From a virus, in the IMG/VR virus record IMGVR_UViG_3300015168_000001, positions 1 to 36,039 of that record: DNA of 36,039 bases. One strand, written 5' to 3'. Of this stretch, positions 30,221-35,014 are shown one piece after another. Position numbers and translations under genes: made by a program. The notes under the pieces are model-generated. The model saw only the letters and a program-made list of their open reading frames with translations, was not told the origin of the DNA and made no database searches. Position 1 is the first letter of the stretch; every line of letters begins with the position of its first letter.

Positions 30221-30357
30221 CGCGCAATCCTTGTGACTGACCGCTTGCTGCCAAACGGGCCTCGACTATTGCATGGCGCGCAGGCCGTAACTGTTGGCCC
30301 CCACACACGGTCGCACTTCGGGCAAACCCAAGGCGCTGGGTTCTTTTCACCAATCAT
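30217..30357 (-). CDS. Mini zinc-ribbon protein (46 residues)
   Basis: A 46-residue ORF reading MIGEKNPAPWVCPKCDRVWG, then PTVTACAPCN and a basic tail. Two CxxC pairs (CPKC and CAPC) about 14 residues apart form a minimal zinc ribbon. It overlaps its upstream and downstream neighbours by ATGA at both ends, strong evidence that it is translated. Such mini-ribbons often bind nucleic acid or RNA polymerase, but no role can be assigned here. Confidence 0.65.
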   Translation of the reverse strand: MIGEKNPAPWVCPKCDRVWGPTVTACAPCNSRGPFGSKRSVTRIAR

Positions 30358-30605
30358 TGCTGGCTCCTGACTTTGGCGAGGATGGCGTTGATTTGCGCCA
30401 ATACCGGGCTGCTTCCGCTGTAGCCGTGTGTCTCGACTAGCAGTTTACGGGCGCGTTCCAGCGCACCCACAAGCTCGGTGATTGTGGCGGCGGCTTCGTG
30501 GGCCGTGGTTTCATCCGCGCGGCACTTTCCATAGCTGGCAATCCACGCCGCCTCGTCGTGCAACCGCTCGACCAGCGGCGGCCCGTCTTGGTTACTTTGG
30601 GGCAT
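30354..30605 (-). CDS. Hypothetical early protein next to attP
   Basis: An 83-residue helical protein from ATG 30605: MPQSNQDGPPLVERLHDEAA, KCRADETTAHEAAATITEL, ending LAKVRSQQ. The frame is open further upstream to ATG 30734 and ATG 30785. That extension merely translates the attP repeats (LANP, LAN) and is probably not coding. The alternative starts matter because integration would separate them from the gene body. No clear ribosome site precedes 30605. Function unknown. Confidence 0.6.
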   Translation of the reverse strand: MPQSNQDGPPLVERLHDEAAWIASYGKCRADETTAHEAAATITELVGALERARKLLVETHGYSGSSPVLAQINAILAKVRSQQ

Positions 30606-30786
30606 GGAGTTAGCCAATTCAGGGTTAGCCAATTTGCCGGGGCCGGAGGGCGCTGGAACGGTCACATCGGCTGGGTTAGCCAATGACTTATCGTTGATAT
30701 TGGCGGATTTCCGCCCTCCCGTAGGGGTCACCATATTTGCTCTTTTCTGCCGCTCATTCGAGGTTAGCCAAAATGGGTTAGCCAAA
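30606..30786. other. attP: tRNA-like core with five arm-type repeats
   Basis: The core TCCCGTAGGGGTCACCA (30717-30733, + strand) looks like the 3' T-arm, acceptor stem and CCA end of a tRNA-Glu of the alphaproteobacterial type. Five direct copies of GTTAGCCAA start at 30609, 30624 and 30675 on one side and at 30763 and 30777 on the other, all in one orientation. A GGCGG-ATTT-CCGCC hairpin (30702-30715) adjoins the core. The integrase gene ends three bases after the last repeat. This is the standard layout of a lambda-type attachment site. The tRNA identity is from memory, not a search. Confidence 0.8.
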
Positions 30787-30788
30787 GT

Positions 30789-31856
30789 TCACTTCTGTTC
30801 CTGCTCCCACGACACGATCCTGGCGACGATCGACGACGCCAATCGGGCCTGGTCCGCGCCGCGCGAATAGGTGGCGACTTCGGCGTCGTGCTCCCAACCA
30901 CCGATCGCCTTCAATTGCTGCTGCGTGGCGTCGAGCTCGGCGGCGCGGCGAGCGATCGCCTTCCGCAGCCCATGCGCACGGCATTCGTCCGGCAGGCCGG
31001 CGGCGATGCACCAGTCGCGGAAGCGGTTGCCAAACCCGTCAACCGAAAATGGCTTGCCCCACTGGGTCACAAGCAGCGTTCGGATCCCCACAGTCGGCAT
31101 GGCCGTGATCGCGGCCTTCAACTGCGGCGCGAGCAGCATCACCATCGCCTTGCCGCCCTTGGCCGCGCGCCACTCGATCCGATCTCCCTTGATATGCTGG
31201 GGCCCAAGCCGCGATGCGTCACCGCGGCGCTGGCCGGTCCACAGCATGATTTCCAGCGCCAGCCTCGCCTTGGTGCCGAGTTCATGCTTGGCGCGGTATC
31301 GCGCGATCTCTTCCTCGGTCCAGGTGTGGCGCGTCCCGCGCTTGCCGCCGGCGCCATCGGCCAGGTCGGCGGGGTTGGTGATGATCCACTCCATCTTGAC
31401 CGCGAACCGGAACAGCCGCTTGAGCTGCTTGTGCAAGGCGCGCGCCGCTTCCGGGCCGCCGACGATGCGCTTGCCGACGGTCCGCTTGGCCTTCTTGGTC
31501 ATCAGGATCGCTTCAATGTGGCGCGGTTTGCAGTTCACAACCTGGTCGCGGCCGAACTCATCGCGGAACGCCTCAATGATCCGGCGCGCGATCGCCTGGC
31601 GCTTGTCGCCCGCGGACGTGAAGGCCGCGCTGCGGTAGTAAAGGCTGATCAGCTCATCGAAGGTGCCGGGCATGAAGCGCGGCTGCTTGATGACAGGCGG
31701 CGCCGTCTTGGCAGCTTCCAGGGCCTGCTTGAACGCCGGGCTGTTATAGGGCCCGGGCAGGGGCTGCACGACCTCGCCCTTCCGATAGCGGAAGCGCTCT
31801 TTCCCGTGGCGGTCAAAGAACGCCGAGACATATTTAGGCAGGTGGCGCTTCCTCAT
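30789..31856 (-). CDS. int: Tyrosine recombinase integrase
   Basis: The 355-residue protein has an N-terminal arm- and core-binding part (to ~170) and the catalytic domain with Arg210 in TGQRRGDASRL, a Lys at 233/236 in AAKGGK, and H295-GL-R298 in RAHGLRKAIARR. Then comes GGWEHDAEVATYSR with the nucleophile Tyr330. It joins attP to a host attB site, here probably tRNA-Glu. The gene abuts the attP region at its 3' end and overlaps the small upstream gene (ATGA), so it is expressed from the early operon. Confidence 0.93.
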   Translation of the reverse strand: MRKRHLPKYVSAFFDRHGKERFRYRKGEVVQPLPGPYNSPAFKQALEAAKTAPPVIKQPRFMPGTFDELISLYYRSAAFTSAGDKRQAIARRIIEAFRDEFGRDQVVNCKPRHIEAILMTKKAKRTVGKRIVGGPEAARALHKQLKRLFRFAVKMEWIITNPADLADGAGGKRGTRHTWTEEEIARYRAKHELGTKARLALEIMLWTGQRRGDASRLGPQHIKGDRIEWRAAKGGKAMVMLLAPQLKAAITAMPTVGIRTLLVTQWGKPFSVDGFGNRFRDWCIAAGLPDECRAHGLRKAIARRAAELDATQQQLKAIGGWEHDAEVATYSRGADQARLASSIVARIVSWEQEQK

Positions 31857-32035
31857 CGGCCTAGCACCCGGTCCAGTGGATTCGACCAGTCGTTCGCCGC
31901 TTCCCGGGGACCAGTCAATAGGCGGATCGTTCCATTCGGCATAATTTCGGCGCCCGCCACGCTCACGCCAGCCTTCTCAAGCGCCTTGATCGCGCGAGTG
32001 ATGTCGGCCTGCGAAAAGCGGGCAGTGCGTGTCAC
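31853..32035 (-). CDS. Small basic protein upstream of integrase, possible Xis-like factor
   Basis: A 60-residue protein from GTG 32035 (VTRTARFSQADITRAIKALE, then GVSVAGAEIMPNGTIRLLTG). It seems to combine an N-terminal helix with a beta hairpin. I recall this type as common in alphaproteobacterial phage operons, without a known function. Size and place immediately before int would suit a recombination directionality factor. GTG overlaps the upstream stop (GTGA); the longer frame to 32131 lies inside the upstream gene and is rejected. Confidence 0.65.
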   Translation of the reverse strand: MTRTARFSQADITRAIKALEKAGVSVAGAEIMPNGTIRLLTGPREAANDWSNPLDRVLGR

Positions 32036-32505: not shown

Positions 32506-32669
32506 TACCGCCAAGCCCGCCGCCGCACGTCCGGCAATTCCACCGGCCCGCGCCTGTCGCCCGCGATCATCACGCCAGCCCAGTCACGCGCCCTGATTTC
32601 AGCGCGCCAGTTAGCGTAAATGTCCACGACGGCCGGCTCGCTGGCGACGAGGTGAAGGGCGGCTTTCAT
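32505..32669 (-). CDS. Small hypothetical protein (54 residues)
   Basis: Reads MKAALHLVASEPAVVDIYAN, then WRAEIRARDWAGVMIAGDRR and a basic end. Start overlaps the RecT stop (ATGA) and its TAA overlaps the next ATG (TAATG), so it is translationally coupled on both sides. I recognise no family. The fold looks helical with a basic C-terminus. Confidence 0.65.
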   Translation of the reverse strand: MKAALHLVASEPAVVDIYANWRAEIRARDWAGVMIAGDRRGPVELPDVRRRAWR

Positions 32670-33670
32670 GCCGCTTCCTTCGCCTTCGCCGCTGCCTGCT
32701 CGGCTTTGATCTCGGTCTTCCGCTTATCGGCCGCGATCTCGACGCTAGCGCCCATTGCATCCGGCATCGCTTCGATATCAGCCTGGTGGCGCGAGTGGAT
32801 GCTGTTCACGTCGATCACCGCGTTGGCCGCGTTGATCTCGGCGATGATCGCGTCCGCCTTCGCCTGGGCGGGCTCGACGTCGTTGGTGTTCGTGTCCTCG
32901 GCGTCGTCAGGGCCGATCTCGCCGGTCTCGGGGTCGGCGTTCTCGCACATCGCCTTAAGCCGTGGCAGTTCGTCGGCCAGCGCCTTGCGAGCGTCCTTGC
33001 CAATGCCCTGCCATGCAGCGGCCAGAGCGTCGGCGTTGCCTGGGCCGGCAATCTGCTCAAGCTCGGCGAGGGCCGCGGCAGGGTCGGGCTCGGCCTTCGT
33101 GATCGGCGTCAGGTCCCGCGCCCGCTGCGCTTGTGGCGTCGGCGGCGTGTCATTGGCCGGCGCATTGTCGAAGTCGCGCACCTCCTCGGGGACGTAGAGC
33201 CCGCTGGTGGCGTTCGGGTAGACTGTCCTGACGCCTTCGCTAACCACGCGCGAGCGGAGCATTTGACGAGGGTATTGCTTCCACATGGCTTTACCACCAA
33301 TCCCAGCCTTAACCGCCCGCGCCATCGTCCAGTTGATCGTGACGGTGCCGCCCTGCGGATGCGAGAAGGTGGCGTCGGCGCATTCGTCGTCGAGCCGGTT
33401 CCAAACGACCTTGCCGCCGCCGCCGATGAAATCGCGCAGCATGGCTTCGGCCTTCTTGGCGGGCTTGCCTTGGATCAAATCATAATCGCGGAACACGACC
33501 GCCGGGTGTTGGCCTTCGGCTTGTGCCAACATGCATAGTGTCAGGACCGCATAGGGGTCTTTCGAGCCGAACAGCCCGCCGCGGGCGATCGCGGTTGCGA
33601 TCTTCTCGACTTCGTTGAAGCCAAACACCGGCACGACCGGCTGGCCTATGATTGCGACTTCGCTACCCAT
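32666..33670 (-). CDS. RecT-family single-strand annealing protein
   Basis: A 334-residue protein. The first ~165 residues are the RecT/Bet-like core: AIARGGLFGSKDPYAVLTLC, the DLIQGKPAKKAEAMLRDFI segment and the MWKQYPRQMLRSRVVSEGVR segment. The C-terminal half is an acidic, low-complexity tail. It anneals complementary single strands made by the exonuclease encoded just upstream, giving a Red-type recombination system. ATG 33670 has AAAGGAG eight bases ahead and overlaps the HNH gene's stop. Confidence 0.82.
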   Translation of the reverse strand: MGSEVAIIGQPVVPVFGFNEVEKIATAIARGGLFGSKDPYAVLTLCMLAQAEGQHPAVVFRDYDLIQGKPAKKAEAMLRDFIGGGGKVVWNRLDDECADATFSHPQGGTVTINWTMARAVKAGIGGKAMWKQYPRQMLRSRVVSEGVRTVYPNATSGLYVPEEVRDFDNAPANDTPPTPQAQRARDLTPITKAEPDPAAALAELEQIAGPGNADALAAAWQGIGKDARKALADELPRLKAMCENADPETGEIGPDDAEDTNTNDVEPAQAKADAIIAEINAANAVIDVNSIHSRHQADIEAMPDAMGASVEIAADKRKTEIKAEQAAAKAKEAA

Positions 33671-34197
33671 TATGCTTCTCCTTTGGATTTGCCGACTATT
33701 TTCGTGATGGTGGCGCGGCCCCATCCCAAGTCGCGGGCGATGCTCCCTGACTTCTCGCCATCAGCGTGGCGGCGGATAATTTCTTGGCGCTCTTCGGCGC
33801 TGACGATCTTCCGCGCACTATAGGCATGGACGATGTTGCGCCGTCCGCTCGCCCGCACAGCTTCGCTTATTTTGTGAAGCCCATTGGCAAAGGCGTGTCG
33901 CTGATTCTCGCGTGGAGTTACCCATTCAAGGTTTTCAGGCCGGTTGTTCGTCTTGTTCCCGTCGATGTGATTTACGTGGCGGCCCGACGGCTCGCCATGA
34001 AAGGCCGTTGCGACAATGCGGTGGACCAGCATGGTCCGTTTCTTGTCGCCAAAGGCAATGGAGACTTTCTTATAGCCGTTCCGCAGGGTTCCTTGGGCCA
34101 GCGGCCGCCACGTCGAGCCCCATCGACCAGTGCCCCACACGGAGCCATCCGCGCCGACCCGATAACGCCCATCAGTGCCAGAAACCTCATGCTGCAT
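33670..34197 (-). CDS. HNH homing endonuclease (NUMOD4-HNH-HTH)
   Basis: A 175-residue protein. A NUMOD4-like start (EVSGTDGRYRVGADGSVW) precedes an HNH core: LVHRIVATAF with His59, HVNHIDGNKTNN (74-85) and RPENLEWVT. A C-terminal helix-turn-helix (SAEERQEIIRRHADGEKSG, then SIARDLGWGRATITKIV) follows. Free-standing enzymes of this kind cut a specific site in relatives lacking the gene and so spread by repair. It sits between exonuclease and RecT, overlapping both. ATG 34197 was chosen because GGAG lies six bases ahead; 34209 is also possible. Confidence 0.85.
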   Translation of the reverse strand: MQHEVSGTDGRYRVGADGSVWGTGRWGSTWRPLAQGTLRNGYKKVSIAFGDKKRTMLVHRIVATAFHGEPSGRHVNHIDGNKTNNRPENLEWVTPRENQRHAFANGLHKISEAVRASGRRNIVHAYSARKIVSAEERQEIIRRHADGEKSGSIARDLGWGRATITKIVGKSKGEA

Positions 34198-35014
34198 CGG
34201 AGGCTCCATCAAAGTAGAGCCGCAACGCTCCTCGTTTATCGCGACGAAATTCAACGCCCGCGCCGAACGCCTTGGTCACGTCAGGCTCGATTAGCTCTTT
34301 GATCGCCTTCTTCGCGGTCTCGTGGCGCTCATGTTGAAGGCGTGTTTCGATCAAGTCCGCCGCGTTGGAGCACCAAGAATTGGAAGCCGACATATCGACC
34401 TCTTTCACGCCGACCGGCTTTGGCGTCGGCTCAGCTTCCACGGCGCAAGGCGGCTTGCCGGTGCGAACGCATTCCCAGAACGCTTCCTCGGCGGCGATCA
34501 AGCGCGCGGCATAATCGGGGTCGACGAGATATTCGAACATGACCCAATCGCCGTTGCCTTTGAAGGCGGACAGGAACGCGACCTTGGCCCCGGTGCAGAT
34601 GCAGTTATGCGTCAGCTGCGGCACATAGCGCGCGAAGATTTCCGCGTCGGTCGAGCGCGTTCCAGTGTGCTTCGCCTCGAACACAGCGCCGCGATCGGCG
34701 ATCCAGCCGTCCAGGGTGCAGCGCATGAACGCTGGCCCCTTGGTGCAGTCGGGGAGGTCCATGCACTCGACCGCAAGGCCCGTGTTCTTCTCAAACCAGG
34801 CGACATTCAGAGCCTCGGTGAATGAGCCCATCTGGACTGCGAGAATGTCGCTCAAGTCCTCGGGCTCGGCCTCGCCGCGCTTCTCGCGCCAGAGACGGAG
34901 CAGGCGCCTCTCGTCGCCGCTCATTATTGTGTTAGCGTCAGACCCGCCGAGCGCGTTCTTGCGAAGCGCCAGTTGCTCGGCGCTAAGGCCGAGGGTGGAA
35001 AGGAGCGCGTTCAT
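34187..35014 (-). CDS. YqaJ-type recombination exonuclease
   Basis: A 275-residue protein with the lambda exonuclease / YqaJ nuclease fold. It has RKNALGGSDANTI near residue 18, GSFTEALNVAWFEKNTG around 63-79, and CTLDGWIADRGAVFEAKH with Asp102, Glu113 and Lys115 as the PD-(D/E)xK centre. It degrades one strand of linear duplex DNA to expose single strands for the RecT partner. The homing endonuclease gene now lies between the two partners. It overlaps the neighbouring genes at both ends. Confidence 0.87.
   Translation of the reverse strand: MNALLSTLGLSAEQLALRKNALGGSDANTIMSGDERRLLRLWREKRGEAEPEDLSDILAVQMGSFTEALNVAWFEKNTGLAVECMDLPDCTKGPAFMRCTLDGWIADRGAVFEAKHTGTRSTDAEIFARYVPQLTHNCICTGAKVAFLSAFKGNGDWVMFEYLVDPDYAARLIAAEEAFWECVRTGKPPCAVEAEPTPKPVGVKEVDMSASNSWCSNAADLIETRLQHERHETAKKAIKELIEPDVTKAFGAGVEFRRDKRGALRLYFDGASDAA

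Follow-up and report, generated by a model that had tools for sequence, protein, structure and literature searches.

The attP of phage lambda, known together with its integrase Int (PDB 1z1b and 5j0n), consists of a core placed between arm-type repeats on both sides, with an IHF-like site in between. The lambda integrase gene ends next to the attP and encodes an N-terminal, a core-binding, and a catalytic domain. The same features were identified in the virus sequence analysed in this work, with the IHF-like site and the N-terminal domain as predictions. This sequence, a linear virus record (36,039 bases), is referred to as the window. The window differs from lambda in that its core is a 17-base tRNA-Glu sequence and its sites are regularly spaced near positions -50, +50, and +102 (offsets are counted from the core in integrase orientation), and the two integrases share ~20% identity in the structural alignment. 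The arm sequence of the window, GTTAGCCAA, also differs from the arm sequence of lambda.

Related integrases are found in three named phages. The integrase of Sinorhizobium phage phi2LM21 is 35.2% related to that of the window, and the phage has a 17-base attachment site, both annotated in the record and described in the literature (PMC5537653), in a tRNA-Phe(GAA) gene, unlike the tRNA-Glu of the window. No TGGCTAACC-type repeat was found in the available stretch of phi2LM21, where the record ends at the att site and covers one arm. Agrobacterium phage Rivra (PV764937; integrase 29.8% related), a cultured phage, has five copies of GGCTAACC downstream of the integrase, placed around a tRNA-end-like core; four share one orientation and the fifth is reversed. 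Pseudanabaena phage Pan3 (ON968454; integrase 36.7% related) has copies of TTTGGCTA at -69, -45, +55, and +107 from the integrase stop, and these repeats diverge from those of the window after TTTGGCTA. The core sequences of Rivra and Pan3 are other than that of the window, and the stretches examined in both records carry no att annotation. Integrases of the same family are also found in sphingomonads (loci L008-L018, L026-L039, and L069-L079). Most of these are accompanied by the same kind of arm repeat, and their unsplit sites have the same layout. L026 and L027 also have the tRNA-Glu core of the window. This family differs from the window in its varying arm letters, in its range of tRNA targets, and in the inversion of the integrase-side pair in many integrated copies.

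We consider it very likely that positions 30609-30785 represent a complete and unsplit lambda-type attP of a temperate phage with a P22-type coat protein that integrates at tRNA-Glu, with a sphingomonad as the most likely host. Five exact direct copies of GTTAGCCAA are present on the + strand. Three copies (30609-30617, 30624-30632, and 30675-30683, at +117, +102, and +51) lie to the left of the core and two copies (30763-30771 and 30777-30785, at -37 and -51) lie to the right, so arm-type repeats are present on both core sides as in a lambda-type attP. The core, TCCCGTAGGGGTCACCA, is 17 bases long (30717-30733, + strand) and occurs once in the window. GTTAGCCAA does not occur elsewhere in the window on either strand, and dinucleotide shuffles of the whole window gave a mean of 0.11 copies and never reached five. 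The leftmost copy is found in the context GAGTTAGCCAA and the remaining four are found in GGGTTAGCCAA or AGGTTAGCCAA; the leftmost copy is thus the most divergent immediately beyond the 9-mer. The integrase ORF (30789-31856, - strand, 355 aa) ends 3 bases past the last repeat. Both the five direct repeats, three left and two right of the core, and the abutting integrase gene had been described in an earlier note on this DNA, and all repeats are exact at the places it gave.

No tRNA gene was detected in the window using ARAGORN; hence the core is a tRNA end without its tRNA, as expected of an attP. In 257 of 298 genomes from the family of Sphingomonas natans, tRNA-Glu ends in precisely the sequence of the core, including CCA. 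The same end was found in only 19 of 385 genomes sampled from the class of S. natans, and at least five of these 19 belong to the family set as well. The search pattern for both sets was the core extended by the T-loop (GGTTCGANTCCCGTAGGGGTCACCA). The earlier reading of the core as a tRNA-Glu-like 3' end with CCA agrees with the tRNA-Glu genes of sphingomonads, whose ends are identical to the core. In S. natans, a tRNA-Glu(ttc) gene directly follows a related integrase and its 3' end holds the core on the matching strand; tRNA-Glu is also located beside related integrases in S. gei and in genome G035 (L022 and L069, respectively). The family-wide match and these neighbouring integrases indicate that the target is tRNA-Glu and that the likely host is a sphingomonad. 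The matches listed for the P22-type coat protein of the window include Sphingopyxis phage VSN-002 (35.5%).

In tRNA-targeting prophages, the tRNA 3' end carried on the attP restores the gene; in the window this end is 17 bases including CCA, and intact tRNA genes are found beside the integrated relatives. In S. solaris (G001; L055, L062, L065, and L066), three copies of the core are located on one 42-kb contig (3005, 13794, and 33415) and an additional copy is located inside an intact tRNA-Glu on a separate contig. These perhaps represent two elements in tandem at one tRNA-Glu.

The earlier note also expected related prophages to break inside the core, and such breaks were identified at tRNA-Glu in S. 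natans and at tRNA-Arg in genome G069. The S. natans integrase beside tRNA-Glu is ~50% identical to that of the window. The core occurs twice, 10.9 kb apart, and the ends of the element are split in the core. One end consists of the intact tRNA-Glu, the core, an inverted arm-repeat pair, and the integrase. The opposite end consists of two copies of GTTAGCCA that are 52 bases apart, followed by the core. This 10.9-kb element (L201; G002:C6:560500-572500) in tRNA-Glu, with the same core, encodes the integrase, a MerR-like regulator, a tape measure protein, a capsid protein, and a prohead protease. Given its integrase, capsid, prohead protease, and tape-measure genes, the element is more likely a shrunken prophage than a satellite.

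Genome G069 contains a related phage twice, as an integrated prophage and as an excised circle in the same assembly (L188, L189, and L191), with an integrase that is 42% identical to that of the window. The circle is contig C2 (38,127 bases), which has an unsplit attP with GTTAGCCAA arms, and the chromosome, C1, has attL at tRNA-Arg(tct) and also attR. On the attP query, the two matches from the chromosome have exactly 17 bases in common, namely the 3' end of the tRNA-Arg gene and one further base. The chromosomal cores are 38,128 bases apart, which differs from the size of C2 by one base. This relative provides direct evidence of both integration and excision through a core of 17 bases. In the same genome, a portion of the integrase region is repeated at 95% identity near tRNA-Arg(cct) (L190). 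Identity of core and attB, a feature of lambda-type sites, is present for the window phage itself, and crossover inside the core is known from these relatives. The integrase-side arm pair is inverted rather than direct, with the two sites ~18-20 bases apart, in the integrated loci L010, L011, L012, L015, L017, L018, L071, and L072. Site orientation on the integrase side is therefore not fixed in the family.

The earlier note had taken the unsplit attP to mean that the molecule was not integrated. This holds for the present sequence at this site, and for the sampled molecule it is an inferred state because the contig appears chimeric on its left side. Within the first ~150 bases, thrombospondin type 3 (OmpA-type) calcium-binding repeats (PF02412, E 4.5e-5, narrowly missing the Pfam cut-off) are encoded in frame with a fragment of a phage helicase, and this stretch is probably a chimeric contig end.

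The integrase of the window matches Pfam Phage_integrase (E 1.9e-13) and its ORF is intact. Residues K233, H295, R298, and Y330 are invariant and R210 is nearly so among 28 aligned sequences; we take these to be the catalytic residues of tyrosine recombinases (R..K..HxxR..(H/W)..Y). The AlphaFold2 model of the integrase (mean pLDDT 89.4, pTM 0.66) exhibits three strands and a helix at residues 10-50 (pLDDT ~90) before the core-binding and catalytic domains. The best Foldseek matches of the whole chain are lambda integrase structures, and lambda integrase also ranked first in a profile search of solved structures. The model thus suggests a small N-terminal domain, putatively arm-binding, as in lambda-type (heterobivalent) tyrosine integrases. 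The upstream genes include an HNH endonuclease with a helix-turn-helix (33670-34254) and a YqaJ-type recombinase nuclease (34187-35014), both on the - strand, and a RecT-like protein (32666-33724) that falls below the Pfam cut-off.

The integrases of the family are ~28-63% identical to that of the window. Their targets are the tRNA genes for Glu, Arg, Lys, Tyr, and Asn and a tRNA with CAT anticodon (Met by ARAGORN). The target changes at least seven times in the tree of 27 integrases with assigned targets; for a few of these targets, the core sequence was the sole basis of assignment. One clade (99/97) unites the window with L026 and L027, and another Glu group is located elsewhere in the tree.

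The layout of the site was compared among 13 unsplit attPs in which a tRNA-end-like core is visible by eye, including one from S. natans that was joined in silico. L032 (sites inverted), L044, L045, L108, and L155 (sites farther from the integrase or not anchored), and the integrated loci, in which one arm is visible, were left out. A site was accepted if it differed from any of three words by no more than one mismatch or fitted a pattern with two free letters. The complement of CCA was chosen by us as the anchor, and distances were counted from the first core base in integrase orientation. All 13 attPs have an integrase-side site that starts at -48 to -55 and a far-side site at +100 to +105, and 12 have a far-side site at +49 to +53, which is missing in L028. 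A second integrase-side site is located at -72 to -75 in ten attPs and at -37 or -38 in the remaining ones, namely the window (-37), L026, and L027 (both -38), which all have the tRNA-Glu core. The outermost site of the window (+117) has no counterpart in the relatives among these attPs. The choice of anchor does not account for a spacing that stays constant to a few bases among attPs with different cores.

A putative IHF-like site, TATCAACGATAAG, is located at +34 in the window (30687-30699, - strand), between the core and the arm as in lambda-type sites. It is predicted from its two mismatches to WATCAANNNNTTR, which we take to be the IHF consensus, and from the fit of the whole family at this position. 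The best fit of WATCAANNNNTTR among the 13 attPs is at +34 on the forward strand, with a mean mismatch of 2.08 compared to 6.34 (sd 0.75) when every offset on either strand is counted. Eleven attPs have at most two mismatches there (L034 has five and L037 has four). A counterpart on the other strand near -35 was found with one mismatch in L039, L043, and L079. The 13 regions contain eight sites with at most one mismatch, compared to 1.47 in shuffles, and none of these is in the region of the window. As read from sequence, the layout common to the 13 attPs is one of arms near -50, +50, and +102 with a predicted IHF-like site at +34.

Viral contigs were also scanned for pairs of GTTAGCCAA that are 36-66 bases apart, and 80 of the 108 matching stretches were analysed. 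Most of the 80 are without a related integrase and have unrelated spacings (32 pairs at 66). A family integrase was detected using tblastn in five loci with spacings of 50-52 (L108, L114, L149, L154, and L155), although the match in L114 is separated by 9.5 kb and the contigs of L149 and L154 had already been included as L039 and L043. Five other loci among the 80 (L104, L122, L129, L135, and L156) have spacings of 50-51 without a family integrase by tblastn.

The arm words vary between phages (TGGCTAACC, TGTCTAACC, TGTCCAACC, TGGCGAACC, and others). Among 52 sites from the 13 attPs, two sites of one attP share the letter at position 3 in 62 of 79 pairs (33.6 when shuffled), and sites on opposite sides of the core share it in 40 of 52 pairs (22.1 when shuffled), and none of 5000 shuffles reached either count. 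Arm letters that differ between phages and agree within a site suggest that one protein reads both arms. This protein is most likely the integrase. The concerted letters are support rather than proof, since recombination or recent duplication could also keep the repeats alike. The earlier note predicted that the repeats are the arm-binding sequence of the integrase or of Xis. That prediction can be narrowed to the integrase because the repeats are located on both arms, occur beside the integrases of relatives at several tRNA genes, and co-vary across the core. The N-terminal domain was not clearly superior to the other domains as a predictor of the arm letter. Prediction of position 3 from the nearest neighbour was right in 23 (N-terminal), 18 (core-binding), and 22 (catalytic) of 32 cases, and the mean column scores of 0.95, 0.33, and 0.21, respectively, favour the N-terminal domain, although without a control for relatedness. 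There was no clean effect of one domain over the others. The labels covered 34 of 40 arm-word loci, from which two near-copies were dropped; the six excluded loci had mixed or partial words or incomplete proteins.

Direct repeats near att sites are also typical of excision factors, as reported for Apl of phage 186, and a small uncharacterised gene adjoins the integrase of the window. The repeats might be sites for an excision factor (Xis) or a repressor in place of the integrase, with the core still as the crossover site. We consider this quite improbable, as all 13 attPs have repeats on both arms, at constant distances from the core and with letters that agree across it, and the integrase model has an additional N-terminal domain of the kind that arm sites serve. 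Sites of excision factors are usually found on one arm. The adjoining gene encodes 60 aa (31853-32035, - strand), with a GTG start at 32035 and an overlap (ATGA) with the integrase start. Of 62 loci, which were not de-duplicated and include those used to build the profile, 47 have a homolog located upstream of the integrase; most of the 15 loci without one have more distant integrases. The protein was found at 23 places in 19 of 199 genomes, and a tyrosine recombinase was recognised by the family sequences in 16 of the 23 places and not in the other seven. It has no match in Pfam, where it was searched as a longer ORF, or in NCBIfam, and a weak PHROG match is of unknown function. The model, of modest confidence (pTM 0.51), consists of one helix, a hairpin, and a short helix, and no solved structure was matched below E 0.001 in the fold search. 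From its position, we would guess that this protein is a candidate excision factor or integrase partner. A wider proposal, in which the attP scaffold is fixed, arm letters and tRNA target change separately, and excision is controlled by this helix-plus-hairpin protein as the representative of a new, very small type of excision factor, is tentative and seems to us rather unlikely.

The attP might also be decayed or non-functional, in which case the phage would have kept its site and no longer integrate. No prophage of the window phage itself was found, and the scans gave no integrase above 63% identity to that of the window, which would fit such decay. However, the integrase ORF is intact with K233, H295, R298, and Y330 invariant, every element of the site is present, and the two nearest relatives share both target and layout, so we regard a decayed attP as even less probable than binding by an excision factor. 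The least probable reading, with hardly any likelihood, is that the repeats are part of a 143-codon ORF (30354-30785, - strand) and resemble arm sites by chance. This ORF is open through all five repeats, which read Leu-Ala-Asn or Trp-Leu-Thr within it. However, it has no Pfam or PHROG match and no homolog in the family loci searched, where the repeats are conserved, and an ATG at 30606 lets such a gene start outside the repeats. As a full explanation of the repeats it is refuted by the layout conserved in relatives.

We thus return to the lambda-type attP for tRNA-Glu. In the mechanism we infer for the window phage, the GTTAGCCAA arm sites to the left and right of the core would be bound by the small N-terminal domain of the integrase, and the 17-base core itself by the core-binding and catalytic domains. 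An IHF-like host protein would probably bend the DNA at +34, and integrase molecules may then bridge arm and core. Strand exchange between the core and the 3' end of the host tRNA-Glu gene, which has the same sequence, would insert the phage and leave an intact tRNA gene on the integrase side.

The site is an ordinary lambda-type attP for tRNA-Glu that is new as an individual and not as a kind. Literature on Sphingomonas attP and tRNA sites, arm-type sites, and the repeat letters was searched, and no paper on this attP was among the matches listed. The DNA of the attP alone predicts the integration target of the phage, its likely hosts, and the sequence its integrase would bind. The integrase family is a ready comparative set with six kinds of tRNA targets and several arm variants on one scaffold. 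It could be used to examine what determines the letters that an arm-binding domain recognises and how a change of tRNA target comes about in integrases, and the attP could serve as an integration tool for sphingomonads.
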